Source: Blautia faecicola (GTDB lineage: Bacteria; Bacillota; Clostridia; Lachnospirales; Lachnospiraceae). Taken from it: DNA of 64,000 bases. Shown here piece by piece: positions 32,750-58,676 of the stretch (positions are counted from its first letter, which is position 1; the number at the start of each line of letters is the position of its first letter). The DNA lies in assembly GCF_004123145.1 (NCBI RefSeq), contig NZ_SDKC01000001.1:1383501-1447500 (forward strand). The letters are read 5' to 3'. The position numbers were made by a program, and so were the translations under genes. The notes beneath the pieces are model-generated. The model was not told where the DNA came from, did no database searches, and saw nothing but the letters and a program-made list of their open reading frames with translations.

Positions 32750-32843
32750 ATATCAATAATTGGTCCGGTGGACCAATTTCGATTACGCGAGCAACGAGCC
32801 AAAGTCTGTGCTTGTACGAGATCTTGGCGACTGCTGTGATAAC
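32750..32843 (+). repeat. Composite R1+R2 intergenic repeat, copy 1
   Basis: R1 (32750-32784) is ATATCAATAAT, a perfect stem TTGGTCC-ggt-GGACCAA, then TTCGATT. R2 (32785-32843, 59 bases) starts ACGCGAGCAACGAGCC, has the hairpin GCCAAAGTC...TTGGC, and ends GATAAC. R2 abuts R1 directly, as at 35.35 kb. The repeat starts eight bases after the T-tract of the TPP terminator. Confidence 0.75.
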
Positions 32844-32913
32844 AAGACTTTTGTTTCTTTAAAAGAAGATATCTGTGATGCAGGCAGCTTATGAACGTAT
32901 GATTTTACGGATT

Positions 32914-32942
32914 TTGCAAAGAAAGAATCTGTAAGATAAAAT
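32914..32942 (+). promoter_or_regulatory. Second sigma-A promoter, in front of thiW
   Basis: TTGCAA (32914-32919) and TAAAAT (32937-32942) with a 17-base spacer. A transcript would start near 32950, so the leader RNA described next can be made independently of the TPP riboswitch. Confidence 0.65.
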
Positions 32943-32951
32943 TTTATAAGA

Positions 32952-33080
32952 AGTGCAGGTGAATCTGAGGGGGAGCGCCCTGAGATCCGGCATGCAGAAA
33001 AAAGCGATGGGAATCCGTGTTTCGGAGTGAGAGGAAGTAAGGGAACTTCGACCGAAAAAACAGGGAAACTGCGCTTTTTT
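32952..33080 (+). ncRNA. Candidate HMP-PP (thiS-motif-like) riboswitch embedded in a terminator
   Basis: A 9-bp stem AAAAAAGCG (32998-33006) / CGCTTTTTT (33072-33080) has terminator form and encloses about 65 bases. Inside are TCCG/CGGA, then GTGAGAGGAAGT..ACTTCGACCG (33027-33054), almost identical to the J2-3/P3 part of the TPP aptamer upstream (32636-32661). The P4/P5 half of a TPP riboswitch is missing. A further 5' hairpin (ATCTGAGGG/CCCTGAGAT, near 32962-32984) precedes it. Known HMP-PP riboswitches have a small aptamer embedded in a terminator and control thiazole-branch genes, exactly as here (thiW, thiM, thiE). I matched it from architecture and context, not from a covariance model. 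Confidence 0.55.
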
Positions 33081-33133
33081 ATGCCCACAGACAAAAAGTA
33101 AAGTTTTCCCGGAAATCAGAGAGGAAAACAAAG

Positions 33134-33691
33134 ATGGAAAAACAAAGACTGAACACATTTCGAATGGTAATGCTGGCTATGATGGTTGCAATCGGGGTGG
33201 TAATATCTCCGATTCTGCGTATCGAAGGGATGTGCCCGACAGCGCATCTGATCAATATTGTCTGCTCGGTACTGATGGGACCATGGTATTCTCTGCTTTG
33301 TGCAACGATGATCGGAGTGATCCGTATGCTGTTTATGGGAATTCCGCCACTTGCCCTGACAGGAGCTGTATTTGGTGCATTTCTTTCTGGCGTTTTTTAC
33401 CGGGTATCCGGCGGTAAGATCATCTGCGCGGTGCTTGGAGAAATTTTCGGAACCGGTATTATCGGATCTATCGTATCGTATCCGGTGATGGCATTTATCA
33501 TGGGAAGAGATGGCCTGAATGCATTTTTCTATACCCCGATGTTTGTATCTGCAACGATCATGGGCGGGGCAGCAGCCTATGTATTTTTAAAAGCGCTGAG
33601 CCGTGCAGGTCTGCTGGCAAAATTTCAGAGAAGTCTTGGAGCGAAAGTTTATGATAAAACAGTTAGAAAATCAGCTGAGGAACGTGCGTAA
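33134..33691 (+). CDS. thiW: Thiamine-precursor ECF transporter S component ThiW
   Basis: 185-residue membrane protein with about five to six helices, matching the ThiW family of S components proposed to import the thiazole precursor (hydroxyethylthiazole) through an ECF energising module. The conserved N-terminal stretch (ISPILRIEGMCPTAHLIN) and MGPWYSLLCATMIG are characteristic. GAGAGG precedes ATG 33134. It is first in an operon with thiM and thiE, behind two thiamine-related RNA elements. The ECF A/A'/T genes are not in the window. Confidence 0.9.
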   Translation: MEKQRLNTFRMVMLAMMVAIGVVISPILRIEGMCPTAHLINIVCSVLMGPWYSLLCATMIGVIRMLFMGIPPLALTGAVFGAFLSGVFYRVSGGKIICAVLGEIFGTGIIGSIVSYPVMAFIMGRDGLNAFFYTPMFVSATIMGGAAAYVFLKALSRAGLLAKFQRSLGAKVYDKTVRKSAEERA

Positions 33692-34484
33692 TGCCACGAA
33701 AGAAAACAGTCCGCTGATTCACTGCATCACCAATCCCATCTCCATTCATGGATGTGCCAATATGATTCTTGCGGTGGGAGCAAGACCCATGATGGCAGAA
33801 CATCCGCTGGAGGTGGAGGATATCACGAGGACAGCAGGTGCACTGATGCTGAACCTTGGCAATATTACCGATGCCAGGATGGAATCTATGCGCCGCTCAG
33901 CCCGGGTAGCCATGGAGTGTGGGATTCCGATATTATTAGATCTGGTGGGAGTAACCTGCAGCAGGATCCGGATGGAGCTTGCCCGGGAACTGATCGGGTT
34001 TGGGCAGATACAGATCCTGAAGGGAAATATATCTGAACTTCTGGCAATCGCCGGCCAGTCCTTTCATGGAACCGGAATCGATGCAGGAAAAGAAGATGCG
34101 ATGACAGATGAAAACGAAGAAGAAAGAAGAAGGATCTTCCGGACGTTTTCGCAACAGACAGGCAGTGTGCTTCTGGCTACCGGAGCCAGAGATCTGCTGG
34201 TAGATCAGGAACGGTGTCTGATACTGGAAAATGGTACCACAAAGCTGTCCGGGATCACCGGTACCGGATGCATGGTTGGAGCACTTACTGCCGCCTATCT
34301 GGCACAAAAAGATCCGTTTATCGCAGCCGTGCTTGGCATTTCTGTCATGGGAATCGCAGGAGAACTGGCGGAACGGTCTTCGAAAGGCCCCGGAAGCTTC
34401 CAGATAGAACTGCTGGACGCAGTGGCAGGGATGCGACAGGAAGTACTGGAAGCGAAACTTCGGATCCGCGAGACAGAAGCGTAA
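33651..34484 (+). CDS. thiM: Hydroxyethylthiazole kinase
   Basis: 277 residues; phosphorylates 4-methyl-5-hydroxyethylthiazole to HET-P, the salvage entry to thiamine. Conserved: PLIHCITNPISIHGCANMIL at the N-terminus, GARPMMAEHP, and the anion-hole/catalytic GITGTGCMVGALTAAYL near residue 205. ATG 33651 (after GGAG) is preferred over the in-frame 33603; it overlaps thiW by 41 bases, implying coupling. A decayed R2 repeat separates it from thiE. Confidence 0.93.
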   Translation: MIKQLENQLRNVRNATKENSPLIHCITNPISIHGCANMILAVGARPMMAEHPLEVEDITRTAGALMLNLGNITDARMESMRRSARVAMECGIPILLDLVGVTCSRIRMELARELIGFGQIQILKGNISELLAIAGQSFHGTGIDAGKEDAMTDENEEERRRIFRTFSQQTGSVLLATGARDLLVDQERCLILENGTTKLSGITGTGCMVGALTAAYLAQKDPFIAAVLGISVMGIAGELAERSSKGPGSFQIELLDAVAGMRQEVLEAKLRIRETEA

Positions 34485-34487
34485 TAT

Positions 34488-34567
34488 ACGTGAACAGTGA
34501 GTTTAAGCGTATGGGTGCAAAAAAGTCCTTGCTTGCATGAGCCCCCGGAGACTGCCATGATAGCGGG
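34488..34567 (+). repeat. Degenerate R2 repeat inside the thi operon
   Basis: Within the 132 bases between thiM and thiE, AAAGTCCTTGCTTGCATGAG and then GACTGCCATGATAG align with the R2 core and end. A short extra segment (about 34505-34522) is inserted near its 5' end. It is the only repeat of the family seen within an operon. Confidence 0.5.
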
Positions 34568-34616
34568 TAAAATCGCGGGGAGAATGCCAAAAAGAAACAT
34601 AGGAGATATAAGGGAT

Positions 34617-35249
34617 ATGAAAGCAAAATTAGATATGACATTATATCTGGTTACAGATAGCACGTATCATACAGAGGAATCTTTTTATAAAACCATAGAG
34701 GAAGCCTGTCAGGGTGGCGTTACCCTGGTACAGCTGCGGGAAAAGAACTGTGGGGGAAGAGAATATCTGGAGAAAGCCAGAAAGGTAAAAGCCATCACAG
34801 ACCGCTATCAGATTCCGCTGATCATTGATGACCGTGTGGATGTGGCCATTGCCTGCGATGCTGCCGGTGTTCATGTGGGATCTTCGGATCTGCCGGTCTC
34901 TGTGGCAAGAGAATTGCTCGGACCGGATAAAATCGTAGGAGCTACGGCAAAGACGGTGGAAGCTGCGAAGAAAGCATATGAAGAGGGTGCGGATTACCTT
35001 GGCGTGGGAGCAATCTTTCCGACGACAACAAAGGTGGTAACAATCCGGACCTCCGTGGAAACACTGAACGAGATATGTCAGGCAGTACCGATTCCTGCGG
35101 TAGCTATCGGTGGACTGAACGATGGAAATATGGATGTGCTGAAAGGCGGAAACATGGATGGAATCGCTGTGGTATCTGCGATCATGAAAGCAGAGCATCC
35201 GAAGGAAGCAGCACAGAAACTGAAAGCACATGTAAAAGAGCTGAAATAA
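34617..35249 (+). CDS. thiE: Thiamine-phosphate synthase
   Basis: 210-residue TIM-barrel enzyme coupling HMP-PP and HET-P to thiamine phosphate. Visible motifs: VTLVQLREKN, the IIDDRVDVA Mg/pyrophosphate segment, GVHVGSSDLP, and VGAIFPTTTK. AGGAGATATAAGGG precedes ATG 34617; the frame is open to 34497 but the upstream part encodes the decayed repeat. Last gene of the salvage operon; a strong terminator follows. Confidence 0.94.
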   Translation: MKAKLDMTLYLVTDSTYHTEESFYKTIEEACQGGVTLVQLREKNCGGREYLEKARKVKAITDRYQIPLIIDDRVDVAIACDAAGVHVGSSDLPVSVARELLGPDKIVGATAKTVEAAKKAYEEGADYLGVGAIFPTTTKVVTIRTSVETLNEICQAVPIPAVAIGGLNDGNMDVLKGGNMDGIAVVSAIMKAEHPKEAAQKLKAHVKELK

Positions 35250-35299
35250 TAAATAAAACGCCTAAGATCACAGAGAATAATAAAAAACAAGATATGGCT

Positions 35300-35342
35300 G
35301 TCACATGAAAACAAGAAGACCGTTTTCATGTGACATTTTTTT
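35300..35342 (+). terminator. Terminator of the thi operon
   Basis: A perfect 13-bp stem GTCACATGAAAAC (35300-35312) / GTTTTCATGTGAC (35322-35334), then a T-tract. Confidence 0.92.
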
Positions 35343-35349
35343 GCGTTGC

Positions 35350-35524
35350 ATATCAATAATTGGTCCAGTGGATCAATTTTGATTTTACGCGAGCAACGAG
35401 CCAGAGTCCGCGCTTGCACGAGACCTTGGCGACTGCCGCGATAACTACGAAAAACTCGCAAAGCGTGTTTCTTGTAGTTACGCGAGCAACGAGCCCAAGT
35501 TTGTGGTTGCAGCTTGCATAGCGG
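35350..35524 (+). repeat. Composite R1+R2 intergenic repeat, copy 2, with a second partial R2
   Basis: R1 35350-35386 (stem TTGGTCC-agt-GGATCAA), R2 35387-35445 (59 bases, ending GATAAC), then a hairpin 35443-35479 with loop CTCGCAAAGCG and stem AACTAC..GTAGTT, then a second R2 start (ACGCGAGCAACGAGCC at 35480) that fades by 35524. The remainder up to the Rrf2 promoter (35525-35714) shows no gene. It contains one more faint ACAACGAGC trace near 35561. Confidence 0.75.
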
Positions 35525-35714
35525 TATGAAACAGTATACCTATACTGTCATTTATGTAGACAACGAGCTAAATAATGTTTGGGAAAAAACTGGGTAGTTG
35601 TTTAGATAATGAGATGATTTGTAAAATACATGTTTGATTCTTATCGATCCGTACAAAAAAAGAATAAGACATCTGGAGTATGTTTGAAAAAACGATAGAA
35701 ATACAAATTCCCTC

Positions 35715-35744
35715 TTGAAAACCATAATAACCTTGTGGTAAACT
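35715..35744 (+). promoter_or_regulatory. Promoter of the Rrf2-family gene
   Basis: TTGAAA (35715-35720) and TAAACT (35739-35744), 18-base spacer, 30 bases before the start codon. Confidence 0.45.
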
Positions 35745-35773
35745 AGGTATATAGGAAATATGGAGGTTAAAGC

Positions 35774-36205
35774 ATGAAAATATCGACAAGAGGACGTTAC
35801 GCGATCCGTGTAATGTTAGATCTGGCAGAGCATAATACCGGAGAATATATTCCGTTGATGGATATAGCAAAAAGACAGGAGATCTCAGAGAAATATCTGG
35901 AAGCGATTGTGGCATCACTGAGTAAGAACGGTTTTGTACGTTCCCTGAGGGGAAAAGGCGGCGGATATCAGCTGTTAAGAGCTCCGGAAGAATATACCGT
36001 CGGAAGCATCCTCAGACTGACCGAAGGCTCCCTGGCACCGGTTGCCTGTCTGGAACATGAACCAAACCAGTGTGAACGTGTTGCTACCTGCAAGACATTG
36101 AAGATGTGGGAAGGTGCATATAAGGTTATCACCGAGTACTTTGACGGGATTACGATCGCAGATCTGATGGTAGACACTACAGATGTGGGCAATTATATTA
36201 TCTAA
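35774..36205 (+). CDS. Rrf2-family transcriptional regulator (IscR-like)
   Basis: 143 residues. The N-terminal winged helix (KISTRGRYAIRVMLDLAEH; EISEKYLEAIVASLSKNGFVRSLRGKGGGYQL) is typical of Rrf2 proteins. Three cysteines at 92, 100 and 106 occupy the place where IscR binds its 2Fe-2S cluster (there spaced 92/98/104), so cluster sensing is plausible. ATG follows TGGAGG. Usually such genes precede cysteine desulfurase genes; here a terminator, a repeat and a tRNA gene follow, so its regulon lies elsewhere. Confidence 0.87.
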   Translation: MKISTRGRYAIRVMLDLAEHNTGEYIPLMDIAKRQEISEKYLEAIVASLSKNGFVRSLRGKGGGYQLLRAPEEYTVGSILRLTEGSLAPVACLEHEPNQCERVATCKTLKMWEGAYKVITEYFDGITIADLMVDTTDVGNYII

Positions 36206-36217
36206 AGAAAATACAAA

Positions 36218-36249
36218 AACAGCGGCCATGCATATGGCGGCTGTTTTTC
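36218..36249 (+). terminator. Terminator after the Rrf2-family gene
   Basis: AACAGCGGCCAT (36218-36229) pairs with ATGGCGGCTGTT (36234-36245) with one mismatch, then a T-run. Confidence 0.8.
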
Positions 36250-36258
36250 TTGCTTTGC

Positions 36259-36292
36259 ATATCAATAATTGGTCTAGTAGACCGATTATCAT
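36259..36292 (+). repeat. R1 intergenic repeat, copy 3
   Basis: ATATCAATAAT followed by stem TTGGTCT-agt-AGACCGA. Relative to copies 1 and 4 the C/G pair next to the loop has become T/A, so pairing is kept. It starts just past the T-run of the Rrf2 terminator. Confidence 0.7.
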
Positions 36293-36311
36293 AAAATTAT
36301 TCCGAAAAGGG

Positions 36312-36339
36312 TTGATTTTCAAAATAAGAAGTCTATAAT
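36312..36339 (+). promoter_or_regulatory. tRNA-Val promoter
   Basis: TTGATT (36312-36317) and a consensus TATAAT (36334-36339), 16-base spacer, ten bases before the tRNA. Confidence 0.75.
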
Positions 36340-36348
36340 AACAGGTAT

Positions 36349-36422
36349 GGAAGCATAGCTCAGCTGGGATGAGCGTTCGCCTCACACGCGAGAGGTCAGG
36401 GGTTCGAGCCCCCTTGCTTCCA
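36349..36422 (+). tRNA. tRNA-Val (anticodon CAC)
   Basis: A full cloverleaf: acceptor GGAAGCA (36349-36355) with TGCTTCC (36415-36421) and discriminator A; D-arm AGCTCAGCTGGGATGAGC-like; anticodon stem TTCGC/GCGAG with loop CTCACAC giving CAC; T-arm GGGG-TTCGAGC-CCCC. The 3' CCA is not encoded. A T-run follows directly. Confidence 0.93.
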
Positions 36423-36471
36423 TTTTTTGTTTGAATAAATATCAGCCATATTTTGGTAAAACATTATATAT

Positions 36472-36520
36472 AAATAACTCCGGAAGTCATGATTGAAGAC
36501 GACTTCCGGAGTTATTTATA
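36472..36520. terminator. Long perfect bidirectional terminator
   Basis: AAATAACTCCGGAAGTC (36472-36488) and its exact reverse complement (36501-36517). It lies between the tRNA gene and the convergent aminotransferase gene. Confidence 0.88.
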
Positions 36521-36530
36521 GAAGCAAAAA

Positions 36531-37607
36531 TTATTTTTTTAACACTTCCTGCAGTGCATCCAGCACTTCCTGAACCTTTTCCATATAAGCATTTTCACCC
36601 ATATGTCCGATGCGGATCAGTTTTCCGGCAAAACATCCGAAGGAGCCTGCCAGCAGAATATTATGCTCATAACGCATAGCGTGAAGAATCTCTTCGGCAG
36701 TATGTCCCTCCGGAACCTGGAAGGTGGTCACGGTGTTGGAGTATCCGGATTCCGGATAGAGCTTCAATCCCATGGCAGTGACAGCTTTGCGGGTATAGGC
36801 GGCAACCTTTGCGTGGCGCTCCAGCATCTGCGGGTCAGCTTTGATATTTTCCAGAGCGGTGCGAAGCCCATAGATATCGCTGACCGGCATGGTGTATGGG
36901 AACCATTTGGCTTCATAATATCCTTTAAAAGTCAGCAGATTGGCATAGAAAGAAGCAACAGGTGTCTTTCTGCCTTCCATGGCAGCTTTTGCATCAGCAC
37001 TGATCGTTACCATAGTAAGTCCCGGAGGAGCGGACACCGCTTTCTGGGAGCCACCGCATAACAGGTCGATCTTCCAGTCATCTACACGGACATCTTCACC
37101 GAACATACCAGCTACAGAATCTACAACGGTAAGAATACTGTAGGATTTTAACAGCGTGCAGATAGAAGCAATATCATTTAACATACCACTTGGTGTGTCA
37201 CAGTGTACGACGGTAGCATATTTGAAATCATGATCTTTTTCCAGATAATTTTTCAGATCATCCATGTCAAATGGTCTGGAGTAGTCTCTGGTGTAAAGAA
37301 CCGGTGTGCCGCCGTAGATGGAGACAAAATCCTTAAATCCTTCTCCGAATACGCCGTTATCCAGAACCAGAACCCGGTCGCCAGGTTCGGTCAGGGAAGC
37401 ACATGCGGCCTCCAGACCGAGGATGCCTTCTCCACCGAGAATCAGGGATTCGTTTTCGGTGTGTAACAGACTGCTGTAGAGTTTACAGGTGTCATGGTAA
37501 TATTCCACGAAGTCACTGTCCAGATCCGGGTTCTGAAACTGTTTGCTTCTTGCCAGCAAAACATTTTCACGGACCTGGGAAGGACCGGGAGTCATCATTT
37601 TGTACAT
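36531..37607 (-). CDS. Class V aminotransferase (alanine-glyoxylate/serine-pyruvate type)
   Basis: 358-residue PLP-dependent enzyme of the AGXT/SPT group. The N-terminus (MTPGPSQVRENVL) and GGEGILGLEAACASL are typical. The PLP lysine is in CGGSQKAVSAPPGL, and DSVAGMFGEDVRVDDW carries the cofactor Asp. Substrates may be alanine, serine or 2-aminoethylphosphonate with glyoxylate or pyruvate; the sequence alone does not decide. Its start overlaps the end of the upstream ECF S-component gene by 13 bases, so they are one operon. Confidence 0.87.
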   Translation of the reverse strand: MYKMMTPGPSQVRENVLLARSKQFQNPDLDSDFVEYYHDTCKLYSSLLHTENESLILGGEGILGLEAACASLTEPGDRVLVLDNGVFGEGFKDFVSIYGGTPVLYTRDYSRPFDMDDLKNYLEKDHDFKYATVVHCDTPSGMLNDIASICTLLKSYSILTVVDSVAGMFGEDVRVDDWKIDLLCGGSQKAVSAPPGLTMVTISADAKAAMEGRKTPVASFYANLLTFKGYYEAKWFPYTMPVSDIYGLRTALENIKADPQMLERHAKVAAYTRKAVTAMGLKLYPESGYSNTVTTFQVPEGHTAEEILHAMRYEHNILLAGSFGCFAGKLIRIGHMGENAYMEKVQEVLDALQEVLKK

Positions 37608-38149
37608 AAGCCCATCCTTTCTGCCAGTTTCTGTAACTGGCCAGCGATAATCAGAACAATGACAGCGGCAACACCTACCTGCAGCAGGTTACCCGGAATC
37701 GAAGATGCCGGAGTGATCCAGTTACCGTAAATGATACCCTCTGCGATGTAATAACCAACGATTTTGATCACACATGCAACCAGGATTGCAACAACTTTCC
37801 AGCCGAAGCCTTTTTTCTTTTCGGTGATCGCGCCAACGGAGAATCCCATCAGACCAACGACTACGAAAGTGAACGGAGCCCATGCAGTCCAGCCGGAGAA
37901 CAGGTCGAACAGTCCCATGCCGAAAGCACCGCTGAGTGCGCCGGTTTTCTTGCCGAAGATGATAGCGGCAAGGAATAACGGAACATTGCCAAGGTGGATC
38001 AGTCCGCCGTTTGGTGCAAATGGTAAACGGATATTAACAACTGCTGTAAAAATATAAGTCAGCGCGATGCACATGGCGGTTACCACGATCGCCTGAGTAT
38101 TGTTTCTAGCCTGCGTTCTGGTGCTGGCTGCCTGATTGGAAGATGCCAT
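37595..38149 (-). CDS. ECF transporter S component (vitamin, possibly pyridoxine)
   Basis: 184-residue membrane protein with about five to six helices. The ECF S-component pattern is visible: IALTYIFTAVVNIRLPF, GGLIHLGNVPLFLAAIIFG and a Gly-rich GALSGAFGMGLFDLFSG. The exact vitamin is not readable. It is co-transcribed with a PLP-dependent aminotransferase, and its upstream region has repeats resembling MocR/PdxR boxes, so vitamin B6 is the best guess; HMP or another precursor remains possible. Energising subunits are encoded elsewhere. Confidence 0.78.
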   Translation of the reverse strand: MASSNQAASTRTQARNNTQAIVVTAMCIALTYIFTAVVNIRLPFAPNGGLIHLGNVPLFLAAIIFGKKTGALSGAFGMGLFDLFSGWTAWAPFTFVVVGLMGFSVGAITEKKKGFGWKVVAILVACVIKIVGYYIAEGIIYGNWITPASSIPGNLLQVGVAAVIVLIIAGQLQKLAERMGLCTK

Positions 38150-38170
38150 TTTAATTCCCTCTTTCTTCTT

Positions 38171-38258
38171 ATTATAATTTTAACATCATACAGATCATAT
38201 AGGATAACTGACCAGATAGAAATAACCAGTTTTGAAAAAAATAACCAGTCCAGTTTGA
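38171..38258 (-). promoter_or_regulatory. Promoter with direct-repeat operator for the ECF/aminotransferase operon
   Basis: On the minus strand a TATAAT lies at 38176-38171 with a poor -35. Upstream are direct repeats of ACTGGTTATT (complement of 38221-38230 and 38240-38249, 19 bases apart) and further CTGG boxes (complement of 38212-38215 and 38250-38253). A weak -35 plus upstream direct repeats suggests an activator; CTGG-type direct repeats are known for MocR/PdxR regulators, but the match is from memory of the motif class. Confidence 0.45.
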
Positions 38259-38357
38259 ATAAAAAGCGGTTTTTATTGACAAAAGAGGGGAGAAAGAGGA
38301 AACTCATAGTAAAAAAAATCTGTCTGAATGGGACAGGAGAAAGACGAGGGATGGGAT

Positions 38358-39230
38358 ATGGTATATCTGGAAAATAAAAAACTGAAAGTAGCGATCCAGG
38401 AGAAAGGAGCGGAGCTGACCAGTATCGTAAAAAAGGAGACACAGACGGAATATCTGTGGAATGCGGATCCGGCATATTGGAAAAGACATGCGCCGGTATT
38501 ATTTCCGATTGTAGGGGCGGTAAAGGGAGATTCTTATCGATATGACGGGAAAGAATACAAGATCGAAAAACATGGATTTGCCCGCAATATGGAATTTACT
38601 GTGGTAAATGCTGCGGATACCGAAGCGTGGTTCCGACTGGATGCTACGGAAGAGACAAAAAAGAAATTTCCGTTTGCGTTTCGCCTTGAGATAGGATATA
38701 AACTCTGTGACGATCAGATAGAGACCATCTGGAAGGTCAGCAATCAGGATGACAAGCAGATGTATTTTTCTATCGGCGGACATCCGGCATTTCTGTGTCC
38801 GCTGGCGAATAAGGGAAAACAGTCGGATTATTATTTAAAATTTGATACCAAAAAAGATCTGCAATTCGCACTGATTGATCCGGATGGACTGGTGATCAGC
38901 GAAGACAATATCCTGAAAAATGAAAATGGTTATGTGCCGATTACAGAAAATATGTTTGACAACGACGCACTGATCATAGAAAAGAACCAGGCGCATCAGG
39001 TAAGTCTCTGTGATCCGCAGAAACAGCCGTATCTGACCGTGACTTTCGATGCCCCACTGTTTGGTGTGTGGTCACCGGATAAGAAACAGGCACCGTTTGT
39101 CTGCATCGAACCATGGTACGGCAGATGTGATAAAAAATCTTTTACCGGAACGTTAGAGGAGAGAGAATACGGCAACAGTCTGTGTCCGGGTGAAGTTTTT
39201 GAAAAGCAATTCGGTGTTCGGATTCATTAA
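38358..39230 (+). CDS. Aldose 1-epimerase family protein (galactose mutarotase-like)
   Basis: 290 residues of the galactose-mutarotase superfamily, LacX-like branch. Conserved: the N-terminal LKVAIQEKGAELTSI, FPIVGAV and the KHGFARNMEF segment, the GGHPAF motif with the presumed acid His, and CIEPWYGRCD near the end. It probably interconverts sugar anomers in the cytoplasm; the true substrate of this branch is unclear. GAGGG at 38346-38350 precedes ATG 38358. It appears monocistronic. Confidence 0.85.
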   Translation: MVYLENKKLKVAIQEKGAELTSIVKKETQTEYLWNADPAYWKRHAPVLFPIVGAVKGDSYRYDGKEYKIEKHGFARNMEFTVVNAADTEAWFRLDATEETKKKFPFAFRLEIGYKLCDDQIETIWKVSNQDDKQMYFSIGGHPAFLCPLANKGKQSDYYLKFDTKKDLQFALIDPDGLVISEDNILKNENGYVPITENMFDNDALIIEKNQAHQVSLCDPQKQPYLTVTFDAPLFGVWSPDKKQAPFVCIEPWYGRCDKKSFTGTLEEREYGNSLCPGEVFEKQFGVRIH

Positions 39231-39318
39231 ATGAGAAAGGCTTTATATAAAAACCGAAGGATCAGGTCGGTTGAAAGGAGATTCCGTGTCCGTAGCTGTT
39301 AATAGGTGAAAAATAAAA

Positions 39319-39370
39319 TGTAAACCGATAAAAAAGCATGGTTGACAATCAAAACTCCAGGTGCTATAGT
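39319..39370 (+). promoter_or_regulatory. bioY promoter overlapped by a BirA operator
   Basis: TTGACA (39342-39347) and TATAGT (39365-39370) have a 17-base spacer. TGTAAACC (39319-39326), 13 bases, then GGTTGACA (39340-39347) is the inverted repeat known for Firmicutes BirA (TTGTNAACC / GGTTNACAA), and it covers the -35. Biotin-replete cells should shut off bioY. Confidence 0.8.
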
Positions 39371-39435
39371 AATACCAGCGTGGTGATGAGAAGAATTTTC
39401 ATCCCAAATGCAGCAAAAAATGGAGGATATAAAAA

Positions 39436-46955: not shown

Positions 46956-46992
46956 GATGCAGGTTGTAGAAATACAACCTGCATCTTTTTTG
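46956..46992 (+). terminator. Terminator of the MTHF reductase operon
   Basis: GATGCAGGTTGTA (46956-46968) and its exact complement (46973-46985), then T6. Confidence 0.92.
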
Positions 46993-46998
46993 CATTGT

Positions 46999-47034
46999 AT
47001 ATCAATAATTGGTCCGGTGGACCAATTTTGATTT
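46999..47034 (+). repeat. R1 intergenic repeat, copy 4
   Basis: ATATCAATAAT, perfect stem TTGGTCC (47009-47015) / GGACCAA (47019-47025), TTTTGATTT. It begins eight bases after the T-tract of the MetF terminator. No R2 follows. Confidence 0.75.
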
Positions 47035-47058
47035 ATAATATTTTGCCGGGAGCTGGTA

Positions 47059-49377: not shown

Positions 49378-49379
49378 TC

Positions 49380-51362: not shown

Positions 51363-51438
51363 TACGTTGCATGATATGGTTACTGTTTGCAATTCCGAAT
51401 AAGAGTATGGTAAAATGACAGTAAGTATAAACTAACAG

Positions 51439-51594: not shown

Positions 51595-51607
51595 TTTGTT
51601 GCATTAT

Positions 51608-51640
51608 ATATCAATAGTTCGTTCGGTGAACTCATCTTAT
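51608..51640 (+). repeat. R1-like repeat, copy 5 (divergent)
   Basis: TTGCAT..ATATCAATAG followed by AGTTC-gttcggt-GAACT. The stem sequence differs completely from other R1 copies but still pairs. Confidence 0.5.
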
Positions 51641-51643
51641 TCG

Positions 51644-51952
51644 TTATTTTATTTTTGCTATGGTATCGTGGCATACGGTGCCGTCTTCGGCGATCGTAGA
51701 TTTTCGGATGAATCTTGCATGATGCCTTAATACACCGAGGGCGTACCAGTCATGGGTGCAAAATACGGTACAGAATTCCGGATAGCCATGGGATTTGCAG
51801 GTGTCGAAGTACAGACATCTGCTGATCTCATAGGTAAATCCCCTGTCATCATCCTGCAGGATCCGGGTGTCCCAGCAGATACTTTTGGAATCGGAAAGAT
51901 CATCCATCAGGGACTGGCGCACGATTTTATAACCAGCAGGTAATAAATCAAC
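51644..51952 (-). pseudogene. Truncated L-2-amino-thiazoline-4-carboxylic acid hydrolase-like fragment
   Basis: On the minus strand about 100 codons match the C-terminal half of the ATC hydrolase family (PF14196 type): GFTYEISRCLYFDTCKSHG, then FCTHDWYALGVL and a final TVCHDTI. The N-terminal half is absent and the frame begins inside the oppositely oriented LysR fragment. Non-functional remnant most likely. Confidence 0.5.
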
Positions 51953-51956
51953 AGCT

Positions 51957-52214
51957 TTGTACAGTACGGAGGAAATTTTTCGCATCGATGCGCACATAGA
52001 ATCTTATGCGATCATGGCGATGGTGGAGCGTGGACTTGGAATCGGGGTGCTCCCGGACATGATCCTGAAACGGATCCCATACCGGATCGCCGTCCGGTCT
52101 TTTCGGACTCCATATTACAGAGAAATCGGACTGGCGATGAAAGACAGAACGAAGCTGACACCTGCGACGCAGATGTTTATCGAATATCTCAGGAAGGCAT
52201 TAGCTGTGACTTAG
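51957..52214 (+). pseudogene. C-terminal fragment of a LysR-family regulator
   Basis: 85 codons matching the end of a LysR effector domain: IESYAIMAMVERGLGIGVLPD and a closing KLTPATQMFIEYLRK. The HTH and most of the sensor domain are missing. Together with the flavodoxin-like piece after it, it looks like a decayed LysR/reductase pair. Confidence 0.6.
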
Positions 52215-52322
52215 CGTTAGTATATTGCAGGAGAATAATATATTCGGCTTTTACGAGGTGACTTGTCTGCCACTATGAGATGAGTTTCTTATTATAAATT
52301 TACAGTTATCAACTATATCGGA

Positions 52323-52448
52323 TTTCATAACAAAGGAATGCTTCTGGCAGGCGGATGTGGATCCACAAACGGAAAACCGCAGATAGATAAGACGAACCAT
52401 CTGAAAGAAGCGTATGCATTTGGAAAAAATATTTATAAAACAGAGTAA
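52323..52448 (+). pseudogene. C-terminal fragment of a flavodoxin/NADPH-FMN reductase-like protein
   Basis: A 41-codon open stretch without a start reads GMLLAGGCGSTNGKPQIDKT and AYAFGKNIYKTE before TAA 52446. The pattern resembles the end of flavodoxin-like oxidoreductases that often accompany LysR genes. Weak but consistent with the surrounding decay. Confidence 0.35.
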
Positions 52449-52477
52449 GAGATCCAGGCGTTTGAGGAGATGAGCAA

Positions 52478-52867
52478 ATGAATTTCACAGATGAAAAAGA
52501 TTACATTATGCGAATGATAAAGGAAACGATAAGAGTATTATTTGTTGTTGCATTTGGAGAAAAATATGTTTCCGTTGAACTGGAAAACAAATATGAAGTA
52601 TCCGGAAAAAACCTGAAAGATTTCCTGGACATGATCGATGTGGGACAGATCAACGAGGCAGAAAATCTGTTTTTAGACAGTATGGACTACACAAACAAAG
52701 AAGCGGTAATGGCGGGAGCACTTTTTTACGAACATATTAACGAAAAAGACAACGAGTTCCTGACGAGCAACAATTATACCAGGGAAGAGGTGCTTTCCGG
52801 CTTTCAGCAATTACTGGAGCAGTCAGGGTATCATGATCTGATCTGCCTGGTGAAAGAAGAGGAATAA
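52478..52867 (+). CDS. Small DUF6483-like protein
   Basis: 129 residues, acidic and predicted helical, cytoplasmic. The N-terminal DYIMRMIKETIRVL and the later TPR-like NLKDFLDMIDVGQINEAEN fit the uncharacterised DUF6483 group. GAGGAGATGAG precedes ATG 52478. It seems intact amid pseudogenes. Function unknown; no partner gene suggests a role. Confidence 0.6.
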   Translation: MNFTDEKDYIMRMIKETIRVLFVVAFGEKYVSVELENKYEVSGKNLKDFLDMIDVGQINEAENLFLDSMDYTNKEAVMAGALFYEHINEKDNEFLTSNNYTREEVLSGFQQLLEQSGYHDLICLVKEEE

Positions 52868-52904
52868 GGCTTAGAACCAATATATTGATTTGTGAGGTGC
52901 TGTT

Positions 52905-53312
52905 ATGAAAATAAAAAGAATAAACCAAGAATTTTCTGTCTGTCAGGTAGAAGACTACTCACTTGTAAATATGGATTCGGAATATTGTTTTATCGAAAAA
53001 ACGGATGAGGAAAAATCGTTAGTATGCCTGACAAAAGAAGTTCCACCTAATGTGATACAACGCGAGGATGACTGGAAAGCCTTTCGCATTCAGGGAACAC
53101 TGGACTTTTCACTGATTGGAATTCTAGCGAGAATTGCTGCGATTCTCGCAGATCATAAAATCTCCATCTTCGCCGTATCCACCTACAATACAGACTATGT
53201 TTTTGTAAAAAAAGAAAACTATACGAAAGCACTGGAAATCCTCGAGGCATCAGGGTATATGATCAGTGACAGAAGAAAAGTGGACATTTGTCCATATTTA
53301 CAAACTCTTTGA
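52905..53312 (+). CDS. ACT-domain protein (CASTOR/ACT_7-like)
   Basis: 135 residues. The first half is a small beta-rich domain; the second (about 60-130) is an ACT-type ligand-binding module (LDFSLIGILARIAAILADHKISIFAVSTYNTDYVFVK), as in small amino-acid-sensing proteins. GAGGTG precedes ATG 52905. There is no catalytic domain, so it is likely a stand-alone sensor. It overlaps the next fragment, and its last residues may be altered by the adjoining rearrangement. Confidence 0.75.
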   Translation: MKIKRINQEFSVCQVEDYSLVNMDSEYCFIEKTDEEKSLVCLTKEVPPNVIQREDDWKAFRIQGTLDFSLIGILARIAAILADHKISIFAVSTYNTDYVFVKKENYTKALEILEASGYMISDRRKVDICPYLQTL

Positions 53313-53472
53313 GAAATTTGGCTTTGATGAAGCCTTTGAGAGAAGTGCAATTAGGGAGCTTCTTGAACTGAAAGGTTCCGGTGCGTCAAAATTTCTTTCC
53401 AAACTGGTGCAGGCAGATATTATTGAAACAGTATCCGGTCACGGGAAAGGAAAATACAAATTCAAAAAGTAA
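53266..53472 (+). pseudogene. Winged-helix C-terminal fragment
   Basis: 68 codons overlapping the end of the ACT gene: AIRELLELKGSGASKFLSKL and GHGKGKYKFKK form a winged-helix tail such as those closing Fic-type or AlbA-type ATP-binding proteins. No ribosome site; probably a remnant fused by deletion. Confidence 0.4.
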
Positions 53473-53514
53473 TACGTTAATTAACCAAAAATTATTATGT
53501 CTTTACGAATAACT

Positions 53515-53705
53515 GCTGTTTACCAACTCCCTCGTAGCCCGTCAGGGCGAGACAGCCTTTTGCTGGTGCTTTTAGCAAAGATGAGATCCGACACCTACCT
53601 ACGGAACCTGCCACTGGCAGCGTCCTTCGGATGCAATGCAACGCAGACTTTCGCGAGCGCCAGCTGGCACTCGTGAATCATAGTCGGAGTTGGTGGCTAC
53701 TGTAA
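53515..53705 (-). ncRNA. Highly structured segment at the 3' flank of the IS110 transposase gene
   Basis: No gene is seen between 53473 and 53781. On the minus strand CCAACTCC (complement of about 53687-53694) can pair with GGAGTTGG (complement of about 53524-53531), enclosing near-palindromes CGAGTGCCAGCTGGCGCTCG, CTGCCA-g-TGGCAG and CTCGCCC-tga-CGGGC..CGAG. IS110/IS1111-family elements encode a bridge/seek RNA in a flanking non-coding end; IS1111-type members carry it on this side. Identity as such an RNA is inferred. Confidence 0.4.
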
Positions 53706-53781
53706 AACCCCTTACCTTCCGTATGGAAAAAAGCGCAAACTATCCCTATCATCTTTTAAGAATGATTTATTCATTTTACAT

Positions 53782-55023
53782 TTATGCGGGAACTGCCTCT
53801 TTTGGTGGTTCCCATCCTAATGCTTTCAACTTCTTTAAGTATGCATGGATCTTCCGCTCTGCATTAAACTGATTGTAGTATTCTGCCCCAAGATCCTGAT
53901 ATTTCACACCGTCTTTCAGGATATGATAAATCGCTATTAAGATCGAATGTGCCACTGCTACATATGCACGTTTCTTGCCACGGTGGGTACTGATCCGTTT
54001 AAACTGGGCATGGAAATAGGAACTTTTATGTCTTACCGCTGCATGTGCACATAATACCAGCGTGGATTTCAGCAATGCATTTCCTTTCCGGATCTTTCCA
54101 CTTTTCCGTTTCTTTGCACTCACATTGTCCCCCGGACATAACCCTGCCCACGATGAGATATGACGGTCGCTGGGAAATCTTTCCATATCTGTTCCGATGA
54201 CAGCTATGATTGTCTGTGCACTGGTGTTACCAATTCCTGTAACATCCTGGATCACCTGGGATGCCTGTTTTTCCTCTGGTTTCATAAAGTTGTCAATCTC
54301 ATCGTTCAGGTTTTCAATATGAACGTTTAATTCATCCAGATGCTGGAGCAGCTCCTTTAACATCCTTCTCTGCAAAGGACTCATAAATCCTTTCAGATCA
54401 TCAAGGATATGTTCTTTCGATGCTTTCAGGTTATGGGCAATCAGTTTTTCTTCATACATCTCATCATATTTTTTCTCATCAATCTCATTTCCTGACAGGA
54501 TATATTCGAGGATCTTCCTGGCACTTTTCCCATTGATATTTGTCACCGTTCCTGACAGTTTGATATTGGCTCCTTCCAGCATCTTCTGCAATCGGTTCAG
54601 TTCCCGCGTACGTTCTCCAACGAGGCTTTTCCTATACTGTACCAGTTCACGCAGTTCTCTCTGGTACTTACTCGGGATATAACTCGGCTGAAGTAATCCG
54701 TGCTGGAGCAGTTCTGCGATCCATTCTGCATCCTTTACATCTGTTTTCCGTCCTGGTACGGCTTTCATATGTGCCGGATTCACTACAATTACATGAAGAC
54801 CATACGATTCCATAATGTTGTACAATGGTTTCCAGTAAGAACCGGTGCTTTCCATCGCAACGATCTCACAGTTGTTTTTTTGCAGCCATTCTGCCAGTTC
54901 CATCAGTTCCCGGGTGGTCGCACCGAATTCCCGGAGCTCTTTCTTTCGTTTATGGTTCAGGCAGGCAACAATCAGTTTTTTGTGTACATCAATACCACAA
55001 CAAATGTCGTAAATTTTATCCAT
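53782..55023 (-). mobile_element. IS110-family transposase (DEDD)
   Basis: 413 residues. The N-terminal DEDD RuvC-like domain has Asp12 (CGIDVHKK), Glu58 (MESTGSYW), Asp95 and Asp98 (KTDVKDAEW). A coiled-coil-rich middle (about 150-260) leads to the C-terminal Transposase_20 domain (VTGIGNTSAQTIIAVIG, SWAGLCPGD, GNALLKSTLVLCAHAA). The gene is uninterrupted and looks functional. It begins with GAGGTATTGAT before the ATG at 55023. IS ends are not defined because the family often lacks terminal inverted repeats. It lies beside a methyltransferase gene lacking its first half. Confidence 0.92.
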
Positions 55024-55034
55024 ATCAATACCTC

Positions 55035-55205
55035 CGGATCTTATTTACGGCACGGTACTCTGTCTTTTGTCAGTTTACTGTACGTCCTTTCGCCAAAAAT
55101 GGCCGGACAGATGGTGGTGCAAATGAGAGTACCGGAAATCAATTTAGCTCACGAGCTACAGGCCCAAGCCGCTAACGATCTTTACCGTTACTTTTAGTAT
55201 AACGG
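55035..55205 (-). ncRNA. Candidate IS110 bridge RNA region upstream of the transposase
   Basis: On the minus strand, just before the transposase start, CGGTACTCT (complement of about 55122-55130) pairs with AGAGTACCG (complement of about 55049-55057). The enclosed loop contains a smaller stem, GTCC-ggccatttttggc-GGAC in outline. Hairpins AACGGTAAAGATCGTT-like and TAGCTCGTGAGCTA lie 5' of it. A multi-stem RNA with internal loops directly upstream of the recombinase is the known position and shape of bridge RNAs in IS110-subgroup elements. Target and donor loops were not assigned. Confidence 0.5.
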
Positions 55206-55233
55206 ATAATGCATTTGTTCCACAATCTTTTCT

Positions 55234-55293
55234 AAACAAAAAAGATATCATTTCCGATGTACCATAACTTACATAGGAAACAATATCTTTTTA
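55234..55293. terminator. Bidirectional hairpin insulating the IS element
   Basis: AAAAAGATATCATTTCC (from 55240) faces GGAAACAATATCTTTTT (ending 55292) with A/T-rich ends on both sides, as in a two-way terminator. It would stop outside transcription from entering the transposase gene. Confidence 0.6.
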
Positions 55294-55343
55294 TGAAAAA
55301 CTTCCGGATGCCACTCCGGTTTTATTCATGGTGTAGCACGCGA

Positions 55344-55841
55344 GGCGCGCATGGGAATTTAGCACAAAAGATCACATATTGTCAGATGGATGCCAGCCAT
55401 CTTGCGTTTGCGGACGAAACCTTTGATGCAGTAGTCAGCCGGAATCTGACCTGGAACCTGGAAGATCCGGAGCAGGCGTATAAAGAATGGATGCGCGTGC
55501 TGAAAAAAGGTGGTATTCTGTTAAATTATGATGCCAACTGGTATCATCATCTCTTTGATGCTGAAAAAAGAGAAGAATATGAGAAAGACAGGCAGATGGT
55601 GACTGAGTCCGGGCTGGAAGATCACTATACCTGTACGGATATCGATACGATGGAAGAGATTGCAAGACAGGTACCGCTCAGCAGGATCGATCGCCCCCGG
55701 TGGGATCAAAAGATACTGCGGGAACTCGGAACAATCAAGGTAAGTGTGGATACGGAAGTCTGGAATCAGGTATGGTCAGAGGTGGAAAAGGTCAACTATC
55801 ATTCGACATCGATGTTTGGTATCGAAGCAGTCAAAGCGTAA
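55344..55841 (+). pseudogene. SAM-dependent methyltransferase lacking its N-terminal half
   Basis: The frame reads AQKITYCQMDASHLAFADETFDAVVSRNLTWNLEDP and continues to a normal end, i.e. motifs II-IV and the C-terminal part of a class I methyltransferase. The SAM-binding GxGxG motif I is missing; upstream sequence is of IS/terminator type. It is a close relative of the broken methyltransferase at 56.9-57.5 kb (both have VISRNLTW/VVSRNLTW and YKEWMRV). Confidence 0.7.
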
Positions 55842-55869
55842 GAATAATACAGGACGGAATGAATGTTAA

Positions 55870-56943
55870 ATGATGAGAAACGATAATAAATTTCAGATAG
55901 CAGGGCAGGAAATAACTCCGGGAGAGAGATGGCAGGGAATGCTGATGATCGGAGGCGGAGAATTTGCTCTTCCGGCTGCGGTTCTGCACGGAGAAAAAGA
56001 AGGAAAGACTGTGTTGATTACTGCTGCCGTGCACTCAGGGGAATATGTGGGTGTGGAGACTGCAGTGGAACTGGCAAATGAATTAAAAATGGAAAAAATC
56101 ACAGGGACAATAGTGATCGTAAAAGTGGTCTGTCCTGCAGAATTCGAGCAGCGGGCCGGAAGTCTCTGCCTGGAAGACGGAAAAAATCTGAACCGGCAGT
56201 TTCCGGGAGATGAAAAGGGAACAAGGACACAGCGGCTTGCCAGCGCAATAGAAAAAGAAATTCACTGTGTGGCAGATTATTATATTGATCTGCACAGTGG
56301 GGATGATTATGAAGATCTGACACCGTTTGTATATTATGCGGGAAAAGGTGAAAAAGAAGTTGTTGAAATTTCCAGAAAAATGGCACAACACGTGGACGTT
56401 CCGTATATGATACGTTCTAATGTATCATCCGGCGGTTCTTATAATTATGCGGCGACCTGTGGAATCCCGAGTATTCTGATCGAACGCGGTGGCATGGGAC
56501 GATGGACGAGAGAAGAAGTAGAGTCCAATAAGCGGGATCTGAAGAACATCCTGCGTTATCTCGGTATATACCGGACCAGCCGTGGCTACTGGAACCATTA
56601 TCCCATGGAAGTGACGGATGTGGTATATCAGTCGGCAAATCAGGCGGGTCTGTGGTATCCGGAGAAAAAGCCGGGAGATATGTTCACGGAAGGAGAAAAG
56701 CTTGGAAAAATCACAGATTATGAAGGGAAAATGCTGGAGACAAGTTACGGTGAGTATGATGGTGTGATTCTTTTTCAGACGGGAAGTCTTCAGGTGACAA
56801 AAGAAGGTCCAATGATCGCGTACGGAAGAATCGCCTACGAAAAGGACAATCGAAAAGAGAAAATAGCCGGTTACTGGACAAAACGAAGTTCCGATTTTAA
56901 AGAACAGCGAAGAGAAGAACTTCACAGTCCGCTGGCTGGATGA
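55870..56943 (+). CDS. M14-type succinylglutamate desuccinylase/aspartoacylase family protein
   Basis: 357 codons. Zinc-site motifs are AAVHSGEYVGVE (His and Glu) and YIDLHSGDDYED (second His); the family's LNRQFPG and the late ILIERGG with its acid are also present. A zinc amidohydrolase or carboxypeptidase acting on a small N-acyl amino acid or peptide is likely. The last 25 or so codons (YWTKRSSDFKEQRREELHSP) do not belong to this family. They match the normal N-terminus of the methyltransferase that follows, so the original stop has been lost and the ORF ends in foreign sequence. Confidence 0.78.
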   Translation: MMRNDNKFQIAGQEITPGERWQGMLMIGGGEFALPAAVLHGEKEGKTVLITAAVHSGEYVGVETAVELANELKMEKITGTIVIVKVVCPAEFEQRAGSLCLEDGKNLNRQFPGDEKGTRTQRLASAIEKEIHCVADYYIDLHSGDDYEDLTPFVYYAGKGEKEVVEISRKMAQHVDVPYMIRSNVSSGGSYNYAATCGIPSILIERGGMGRWTREEVESNKRDLKNILRYLGIYRTSRGYWNHYPMEVTDVVYQSANQAGLWYPEKKPGDMFTEGEKLGKITDYEGKMLETSYGEYDGVILFQTGSLQVTKEGPMIAYGRIAYEKDNRKEKIAGYWTKRSSDFKEQRREELHSPLAG

Positions 56944-57542
56944 AATTGATAAATATTTGCCGGAGGGAGAACATCTGCGGATCCTGGATGTGGGCTGCGG
57001 AACCGGATTTTTCACGATTTTGCTGGCAAAGAGGGGGCATCAGGTGACAGGTATCGATCTGACACCGGACATGATCCTCCATGCGAGAGAACTGGCAAAA
57101 GAAGAAGGAGCAGATTGTGAATTCCATGTCATGGATGCGGAAAATCCGGAATACGAGGATAACACGTTTGACTTCGTGATTTCCCGAAATCTGACCTGGA
57201 CGCTTCCGGATGCACAGAAAGTCTATAAAGAATGGATGCGTGTTGTTAAACTTTGATGCCAATTACGGAGCTGTTGATTTTACGGATACTTCCGATCTTC
57301 CGAAAAATCATGCCCATAATCAGATTGAAAATACACTGATGCAGGAGTGTGAGGATATCAAACGCCAGCTGTCCATAAGCAATTATGCCCGTCCCGCCTG
57401 GGATCTGGAAGCCCTCAGCAACAGTGGTGTGCAGCAGTTCCGGATTGATGTGGGAGTCAGTCAGCGTGTCTACATGGAAAAAAATGCATTCTATAATCCG
57501 ACTCCATTGTTTGCAGTCTGTGGAAAAAAAGGGGACTTATGA
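56860..57542 (+). pseudogene. SAM-dependent methyltransferase broken by two frameshifts
   Basis: Three frames must be joined: YWTKRSSDFKEQRREELHS (in the frame of the peptidase, to about 56928), then RWLDEIDKYLPEGEHLRILDVGCGTGFF through YKEWMRV (to about 57243), then VLLNFDANYG to the stop at 57542. The SAM motif DVGCGTG is intact. At the second junction the LKPGG-like turn is missing, pointing to a small deletion. Not translatable as one protein. Confidence 0.75.
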
Positions 57543-58445
57543 TCAATATCAAACAGTTAAAATATTTTATCACCTGTGCAGATGCCGGCTCTTTCAGCGA
57601 GGCGGCATCTGTTTTGTATACGACCCAGTCCAGTGTAAGGTGATCCGTTCACTGGAAGAAGAGATGCAGGCATCTCTTTTCGTGCGCAGTCCTCATGGCA
57701 TCGGTCTGACACCAAACGGAAAACAGGCCTATGCCTATGCCAGCCGGGTGCTGGAAAACGTGGAAGCGATGGCAGAGCTGTCCGCGGTGGGAGATATTCA
57801 GTGGCTGAATATTGCTTTCAACCCCAGTTCCTGGATCGCAGACTGCTTTGTACGGTTTTATCAGATTCATGAAAAAGAGAACCTGCACTGCCAGGCACAC
57901 ACCGGAAAATGCGGGAAGTGCTGGAGCGGATCCACGAATACAAAGACGAACTCGGTTTCCTCTACGTGACATCCCGTCAGCAGACGGATCTGCAGTATCT
58001 GCTGGTACGAAAACAGCTGGAATTCGTTCCGCTGAAAGAACTGGACACCTATCTGTATCCCGGCGGCAGATATCTGCAAAAAGAAGGAAAACAGCTCACC
58101 GGGGAAGCAATCGAAAATCTGCATTATATCCAGAACTTCCTGGAAGACACCGGCAATTACGAAGGCTGGAAACTGGATGCAGAAAATAATCTGACCCTTG
58201 GAAAAATAGATGTCTCCGTCGTAACCAACAGCGACTATATTATGGAAAAGATGCTGGATCACGGTAATCTCGCCAATATCAGCGGCGACAGTCTTACTCA
58301 CGGAAAAACTCCTTCACGTCCGGGCATTTGTCTTACCAATGAATCTGATAAGATTATGTTCGGATATGTAAAAAGAGAAAAGACACCGTTGTCGGATCTG
58401 GCAATGAAATTTCTTGATTATGTAAAACAGGAACTGATCGGATAA
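57539..58445 (+). pseudogene. LysR-family regulator broken by frameshifts
   Basis: Starts at ATG 57539 with a normal LysR HTH (NIKQLKYFITCADAGSFSEAA, TTQSSV), then meets TGA at 57642. The protein continues in another frame (IRSLEEEMQASLFVRSPHGIGLTPNGKQ) and shifts again near 57905 into REVLERIHEYKDELGFLYV and on to the end at 58445. At the first break GTAAGG replaces an expected GTAAGTAAGG, consistent with loss of a 4-base tandem unit. Effector-domain residues are otherwise well kept, so the decay is recent. Confidence 0.78.
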
Positions 58446-58504
58446 ACAACCGGGAAATTTGTATGTTTTGGAGTAACTATTCAGTAGCCATTGTACCGCG
58501 AGGT

Positions 58505-58676
58505 GTTTTGGCATGAATATGCCAAAATCCCGAGACATACAAGCCAAAATGCCATCACCGAAGGTGATTTACGCGAGCAACGAGTCAAAGTCCGTGCTTG
58601 CACGGAACCTTGAGGAGTGCCGCGATAACGATAAAAACTCGCAAAGCGTGTTTTTATCGTTTAAATGCATTTTGGC
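58505..58676 (+). repeat. R2 repeat, copy 3, within nested hairpins
   Basis: A TTTTGGCAT-gaat-ATGCCAAAA palindrome (58506-58527), then AGCCAAAATGC (58542-58552), ATCACC-gaa-GGTGAT (58554-58568), the 59-base R2 unit (58571-58629), hairpin ACGATAAAAAC/GTTTTTATCGT (58628-58660, loop TCGCAAAGCGT), and GCATTTTGGCT (58666-58676), which pairs back to 58542-58552. No R1 is attached. The repeat fills most of the 370 bases between the LysR pseudogene and the nickel/peptide operon. Confidence 0.7.

Follow-up and report, generated by a model that had tools for sequence, protein, structure and literature searches.

The 64,000-nt stretch of the Blautia faecicola genome analyzed here (the window; contig NZ_SDKC01000001.1, positions 1,383,501 to 1,447,500) carries copies of R2, an interspersed intergenic hairpin repeat. 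This work identifies an element of ~93-100 nt composed of two hairpins, A+B, of which R2 is the larger (A). Its copies mostly begin, always in the same orientation, directly 3' of the stem of an intrinsic terminator, and the R2 family is very probably a mobile, terminator-following, non-autonomous small DNA element, comparable to BOX- and REP-like palindromes. A preliminary description of the window had reported the 59-nt hairpin; the terminator rule, the recognition of these 59 nt as half of a longer element, and the location of the 58.6-kb copy within a miniature inverted-repeat transposable element (MITE) go beyond it.

A covariance model of hairpin A was built from 37 aligned genome copies (alignment A2, R1). 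In what follows, G000 is the own genome of the window, G001-G004 are congeners and Lnnn are locus labels. The repeat occurs at 42 places in G000 by blastn and in 69 copies by the model, and the congeners hold 1 (G001), 78 (G002), 3 (G003) and 0 (G004) copies, a patchy distribution within the genus. These counts bear out the claim of an interspersed structured repeat with further copies in the genome and in relatives. The three good 59-nt copies (32785-32843, 35387-35445 and 58571-58629) are present as described, each lengthened by the model to 62 nt. Among the proposed decayed copies, that at 25211-25268 holds, that at 34488-34567 is borderline only, and that at 35480-35524 matches exactly over its first ~15 nt, is decayed beyond them and is absent from the model list (E ≤ 0.01), as is the proposed copy at 25269-25312. 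Within the window, a 14-nt pattern with three mismatches allowed gives 5 matches (4 of them exact) against 3.7 expected, which is no better than chance; a chance origin of the repeat was ruled out because of the genome-wide copy number.

To place the copies relative to terminators, 108 were collected: 65 of the 69 in G000, 29 of 34 in G002 (the 34 listed by the model in the first 20 G002 stretches, less five weaker ones), 8 from records labeled as phage and 6 from other genera. Excluding 3 near a contig end, 16 borne by MITEs and 10 preceded by a further module, C (described below), left 79. A hairpin threshold of -8 kcal/mol proved too lax, as 139 of 300 random positions passed, and was replaced by a strict test: a hairpin of ≤ -15 kcal/mol ending ≤ 12 nt before the start of A, with ≥ 4 T in the last 10 nt. 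A hairpin was found in 59 of the 79 copies and the strict test was passed by 52 (G000 35/51, G002 8/14, phage-labeled records 6/8, other genera 3/6). Controls passed in 2/79 cases 40 nt upstream, 1/79 at 130 nt downstream, 1/79 on the opposite strand at the right end and 14/300 at random positions. An earlier gapless stem test gave 30/51, 8/14, 7/8 and 3/6 copies versus 37/3000 random positions. In further genera, 17 of 28 copies (28 of 29 matches; no control run) passed the strict test, and in nine other genomes 26/40 passed versus 1/40 and 2/40 controls, these copies being a non-random choice from the best-scoring matches. Outside the family the share is 6/21 (G633 5/9, G707 1, G699 0/10, G512 0/1); in G699 most R2 copies lie within a larger repeat. 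No observation made here points to a small RNA produced by each copy. As a terminator precedes A+B in the majority of tested copies, transcription there would be possible only via readthrough, from the other strand or from an own promoter.

Hairpin A consists of an outer helix GCGAGCA/TGCCGCG, a conserved internal loop ACGA / GAC, and the inner helices GYCAA/TTGRC, then GTC/GAC, then an apical CGTG/CACG with the loop CTTG, which is found in 97/155 distinct copies. The following hairpin that had been noticed for its kept loop and changed stem is real and constitutes the second half, B. Its loop could be read by pattern in 87/155 distinct copies (AAA 30, GAA 25, GGA 16). The third module, C (ATCAATAATTGGTCCGGTGGATCAATTTTGAT), is a palindrome that stands alone or adjoins A. 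By eye, 12 of the 14 C copies listed (including two orthologous pairs) lie behind a stem with T, one behind hairpin B and one behind nothing clear. Modules occur in the orders C-A-B (L001) and A-C-B (L012), and A+B units also occur in tandem, with a 93-nt period at L177 (1501 and 1594) and again at L205. TTTA flanks the element on the left in 72/117 copies.

Sites without the element were sought by comparing G000 with G002. In 1.11 Mb of G002, a counterpart was found for 37 of the 65 G000 copies, five of which match only over a MITE. At eight sites, G002 keeps the upstream stretch without the A unit (L003/L140, L006/L135, L010/L119, L021/L067, L022/L076, L101/L145, L107/L095 and L110/L093). 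At L010/L119 a MITE-like remnant is present in G002 and at L110/L093 a C-like palindrome. At L003/L140 the two species share a terminator whose stem differs by a paired change, and it is followed by A+B in one of them and by C in the other. The cleanest junction is that of L006/L135, where GAGTTTTTA-TTTA[element]CCATT stands against GAGTTTTTATAATTTTACCATT, with no duplication and a few ambiguous bases. L114 and L017 may have remnants of the element in G002. The 35.4-kb site (L001/L067) was not counted because its upstream terminator is not conserved, and the 25.2-kb site has no alignable counterpart in G002.

Orthologous copies allow the fate of the element after insertion to be followed. In 18 G000/G002 alignments that span a copy, the element differs at 72/1084 positions (6.6%) and the flanks at 947/18994 (5.0%) and 1041/20353 (5.1%); without L003, a really empty site in the congener, the element differs at 59/1059 (5.6%). 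As the flanks are mostly coding, this comparison is a mild test. No slow-down is seen, and hence no indication that each site retains a function; as orthologous copies accumulate differences no more slowly than their flanks, mobility rather than a per-site job seems to keep the structure. The earlier proposal of selection for structure thus stands for the lineages of the element, with no sign of it in individual inserted copies. A small RNA or riboswitch was rejected as an identity for R2: no known Rfam RNA family gives a covariance-model match there, and orthologous copies drift. A wider form of this idea, that the hairpins are a host-functional RNA or regulatory leader controlling readthrough, 3' ends or the next gene, could draw on the conservation of the structure across the family, on copies that by eye lie between a terminator and the apparent ribosome site of the next gene, and on copy 1, which stands behind a riboswitch terminator in a thiamine leader. 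We regard it as very unlikely, given that presence varies between congeners, the same terminator bears A+B in one species and C in another, orthologous copies are no slower than their flanks and copies are also found inside MITEs.

The compensatory changes noted in the preliminary description are real in both alignments studied. For the 58.6-kb copy, read as GTCAA/TTGAG, the compensation from C-G to T-A is confirmed, and the outermost pair is G.G, i.e. broken. In A2, which was not fitted to the model, 28 cells are changed on both sides versus 12.2 in shuffles, with 0/500 shuffles as high; the number of pairs with two-sided change (4) is not unusual (277/500 shuffles), nor is that of further pair types (444/500). 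Alignment A3 (88 matches from 85 loci) was fitted to the model and hence leans towards it. Here 94.5% of cells pair and covariation is strong, with two-sided changes in 18/19 pairs and 145 two-sided cells versus 38.2 in shuffles (0/500 as high), relatedness being uncorrected in these shuffles; sliding the partners by 1-3 columns leaves 11-27 two-sided cells. Several genomes hold subfamilies of their own with another apical helix (AAGTTTACTT in G185, GATACTTGTATC in G284), so the pair changes mark lineages of the element.

The element is spread across the family, with matches in 134/397 sampled genomes and 118/334 genera (E ≤ 1e-6); the strict filters and the 13 scored candidates per genome make the per-genome counts lower bounds. 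Top-score copies (97.5 bits) occur in seven genera (G002, G018, G045, G137, G210, G258 and G387), a distribution suggestive of recent horizontal spread. A sample across the class contains 9/391 matching genomes, four of them outside the family (G633 with 10 matches, G699 with 12). No match came from 16 genomes that represent other families in the order, nor from a plasmid scan. Eight 'Bacteriophage sp.' records (L058-L065; MT835472.1 and seven other INPHARED records) carry the element and a few more carry parts. All eight are UNVERIFIED faecal scaffolds and at least two look bacterial. Over ~35 nt compared, the terminator in front of the copy in one record (L059) is the same as that of the G137 copy L204, and one record resembles phosphoglycerate mutase genes over part of its length. 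Of two scans of viral contigs, one yielded 0 matches and the other a single, seemingly unrelated one. Spread by phages is therefore not claimed.

The 58.6-kb R2 copy is a passenger within a 232-bp MITE, which may have an IS66-type origin. Most other full copies of this MITE in G000 and G002 are also flanked by 8-bp duplications. In G699, a member of another family (L262-L264, L266-L269 and L271), an R2-like unit is found inside a larger repeat with the apparent inverted ends ACCGACAATTGTTA / TAACAATTGGTCG. Such nesting, together with the 8-bp target duplication at 58.6 kb, is what speaks for regarding the repeats in general as classical MITEs moved by a DNA transposase. We consider that improbable: A+B ends in TTTACGCG on one side and in TAGTT or CTCGTT on the other, which do not form an inverted repeat, and on the right the 3' arm of B is continued by TT in 63/79 readable copies with variable bases beyond, leaving no fixed-length duplication. 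The terminal inverted repeats and fixed-length duplication of DDE-transposase MITEs are found only in the carrier at 58473-58704, and orientation and abutment to stems would require a separate explanation.

How a terminator-following element would move can be sketched as follows. A+B would insert in a single orientation, immediately 3' of a hairpin that T-rich sequence follows. In practice such places are the T tracts of intrinsic terminators; TTTA often precedes the insertion, and no clear target duplication arises. An enzyme supplied in trans would recognize the element in its folded form together with the target hairpin, most likely as single-stranded DNA in a REP/IS200-like manner. Landing behind a terminator would render insertions nearly harmless, so that copies could accumulate. 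Orientation, the hairpin with T-rich target, TTTA, tandems and the lack of a clear duplication agree either with an HUH-like enzyme that acts on single strands or with retromobility of the group IIC type. Within the mobile-element reading, a HUH-like route is a possibility that falls short of even chances, a retro route is a good deal less probable, and something else has about an even chance.

G000 encodes an IS200-type TnpA (a 131-aa frame, NCBIfam transpos_IS200, L041), with a further weak match on contig C2. The L041 transposase was rejected as mobilizer, as no R2 lies within its 3.3-kb locus and a different hairpin stands at its end. By eye, the Y1 genes of G045 adjoin a TnpB-like open reading frame (ORF), as in IS605. 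Group II introns and group II proteins are present in the genus, and class C intron proteins are ~420 aa long. These introns reportedly insert downstream of Rho-independent terminators, a finding ascribed to Robart in 2007, and one orientation without target duplication would fit the behavior of group II introns. The excerpted text of PMC3522654 likewise places class C (group IIC) introns downstream of Rho-independent terminators. R2 could accordingly be imagined as a bacterial counterpart of short interspersed elements (SINEs) that travels through RNA and depends on a reverse transcriptase whose terminator specificity resembles that of group IIC; the conservation of the apical CTTG loop and the internal loop, as in structured RNA, would agree. 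This remains unlikely in our view. RVT_1 matches in G000 are confined to one 606-aa frame, longer than class C proteins, no group II match occurs at the 32.8-, 35.4- and 58.6-kb sites (E ≤ 5), and the element lacks an intron 5' end and falls far short of intron length. The wobble pairs of the unfitted A2 show little strand bias (G.T versus A.C, 35 versus 28) and are not informative, while the 83 versus 47 in A3 are biased by the model. A broader speculation, which we hold to be rather doubtful, is that these are mobile palindromes addressed by the shape of their target, a hairpin, instead of by its sequence: A+B, and independently C, would jump behind any hairpin with T-rich sequence after it, be it a terminator, another such element or perhaps the end of a tRNA. 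Undescribed machinery would move them in trans, either as folded single-stranded DNA or, like a bacterial SINE, as RNA, and in this way they would have spread throughout the family.

Several points weigh against a mobile, terminator-following element. Orthologues in G000 and G002 were counted separately, so that the copies are not all independent. The strict test is failed by 27/79 copies, some with hairpins that are weaker or T-poor and some with nothing obvious upstream. In one failure (L085:15992-16053, G002), the first base of A coincides with the final base of a tRNA-Pro gene (15917-15992) that opens a tRNA cluster. L006 is the sole fairly clean insertion junction, with its few uncertain bases, and L013, where the end of B survives in G002, and L107, one of the eight sites, which fits a deletion between GCG repeats, are better read as short-homology deletions; these patterns indicate that loss of the element occurs too. 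No mobilizing enzyme was found in G000 or through Y1 association over the 397 family genomes: among the matches listed, Y1 (HUH) genes are not clearly linked to the element (82/134 carriers versus 137/263 non-carriers, Fisher p 0.089) and 6/22 high-copy genomes have no Y1 match. Three further failures start directly 3' of a stop codon (frames of 267, 630 and 890 codons; L100, L115 and L101) with no other hairpin in front, and these, with the general position of the palindromes at gene ends, are also what could suggest that the hairpins are second terminators selected as such. That explanation is highly improbable, since most tested copies have a complete terminator in front, kept where the congener lacks the element, and the T run behind B is ≤ 4 in 76/80 readable copies and 5-6 in 4 (opposite strand judged by eye).

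Table 1. Features of the R2 element and its surroundings in the window (positions of the window).
Feature	Position	Strand	Basis or remark
Terminator hairpin in front of the 25.2-kb copy	25145..25202	+	-36.5 kcal/mol
Hairpin A (R2), decayed copy	25207..25268	+	42.3 bits, covariance model
Intrinsic terminator, stem ATCTGTCCGC/GCGGGCAGAT + T run, directly behind thiamine pyrophosphate (TPP) riboswitch	32711..32742	+	sequence; stem kept in congener without element
C element (palindrome AATTGGTCC..GGACCAATT), separating terminator from A	32743..32781	+	sequence comparison
Hairpin A (R2), copy 1	32782..32843	+	79.3 bits, covariance model
Possible, strongly decayed A unit	34508..34564	+	22.6 bits, E 3e-4, borderline; ~24 nt past stop codon of ORF ending 34484
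Intrinsic terminator behind ORF ending 35249	35300..35342	+	stem GTCACATGAAAAC/GTTTTCATGTGAC + 7 T
C element	35343..35383	+	35335-35384 90% identical to 32735-32784
Hairpin A (R2), copy 2	35384..35445	+	89.4 bits, covariance model
Hairpin B of copy 2 (AACTACG..TCGCAAAGCG..TAGTT)	35443..35479	+	fold; shares AAC with A; same position in relatives
Start of second, decayed A unit, tandem behind B of copy 2	35478..35524	+	sequence comparison
C element alone, directly 3' of terminator (ends approximate)	46990..47035	+	core match starts 47001
8-bp target duplication GTTTTGGA, left	58465..58472	+	sequence
MITE, 232 bp, ends GTAACTATTCAGTA / TACTGAACAGTT, carries A+B unit	58473..58704	+	8-bp duplications also at other copies, in both congeneric genomes
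Hairpin A (R2), copy inside MITE	58568..58629	+	84.8 bits, covariance model
Hairpin B inside MITE (ACGATAAAAAC/GTTTTTATCGT)	58628..58660	+	fold
8-bp target duplication GTTTTGGA, right	58705..58712	+	sequence

Some observations supplement these features. The TPP riboswitch ahead of copy 1 (32606-32708) scores 53.9 bits, just below the gathering score of 54.3, and apparent thiamine genes lie downstream of C+A. The solitary C at ~46990-47035 has the same C in a congener (L127). One subtype contains a promoter-like TTGACG-17-TAAAAT (by eye). The 11.5-kb contig C3 of G000 (L098, 3636 + and 10334 -) holds two inverted copies of the chromosomal terminator-plus-R2 place C1:2922554 (L097), which could be due to inverted duplication, to an extrachromosomal element or to faulty assembly.

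The address of R2 offers a simple test system for hairpin-directed insertion and would explain why such repeats are tolerated. It also calls for a different reading of 3' ends, of riboswitch leaders and of intergenic 'ncRNA' in these bacteria, where covarying R2 copies could otherwise be mistaken for small RNAs. No description of this repeat family was found in the open-licence papers covered, and the main text of a MITE review (PMC10969869) contains neither 'Clostridi' nor 'Lachnospir'.

Among known systems, the REP/BIME/REPIN repeats with their RAYT (HUH Y1) proteins resemble R2 as imperfect, intergenic hairpins in pairs or tandems with a short flanking motif (TTTA in R2). Hairpin and orientation are as in REP, and junction L006/L135 shows no duplication, some of its bases being ambiguous. 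R2 differs in that no linked RAYT gene, flanking or coexisting, was found for it and Y1 genes are weakly associated; to our knowledge, terminator targeting is not a feature of REP. Integron attC sites are folded sites that go with an integrase and have GTT...AAC core boxes, whereas R2 ends in TTTAC..GATAAC (consensus). Group IIC introns are ~2 kb ribozymes with a reverse transcriptase and differ from R2, which has ~100 nt and no intron parts; Rfam gave no match to group II ribozyme domains at the three R2 sites (E ≤ 5) nor across the window at gathering scores. What R2 shares with these introns is the address directly behind intrinsic terminators, as given in the excerpted PMC3522654. MITEs such as the 232-bp one are likewise non-autonomous, repeated and structured, and it is the inverted ends and the fixed target duplication that R2 lacks outside the MITE. 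BOX, RUP and SPRITE of Streptococcus pneumoniae are described as probably parasitic repeats in the portions of PMC3049150 drawn on here, where BOX and SPRITE are enriched near gene 3' ends, SPRITE most; portions of PMC10969869 add that these repeats insert into one another. SPRITE is similar to R2 as a repeat family tied to gene 3' ends, but is itself terminator-like, whereas R2 stands behind a separate terminator (PMC3049150, same portions). BOX, likened here by description and not by sequence, differs in its hosts and in lying near gene 3' ends instead of abutting terminator stems. As these two sources portray it in part, BOX is small, interspersed, modular, structured, judged parasitic and nested with other families, and A, B and C likewise form several structured modules of variable order that nest with other repeats.

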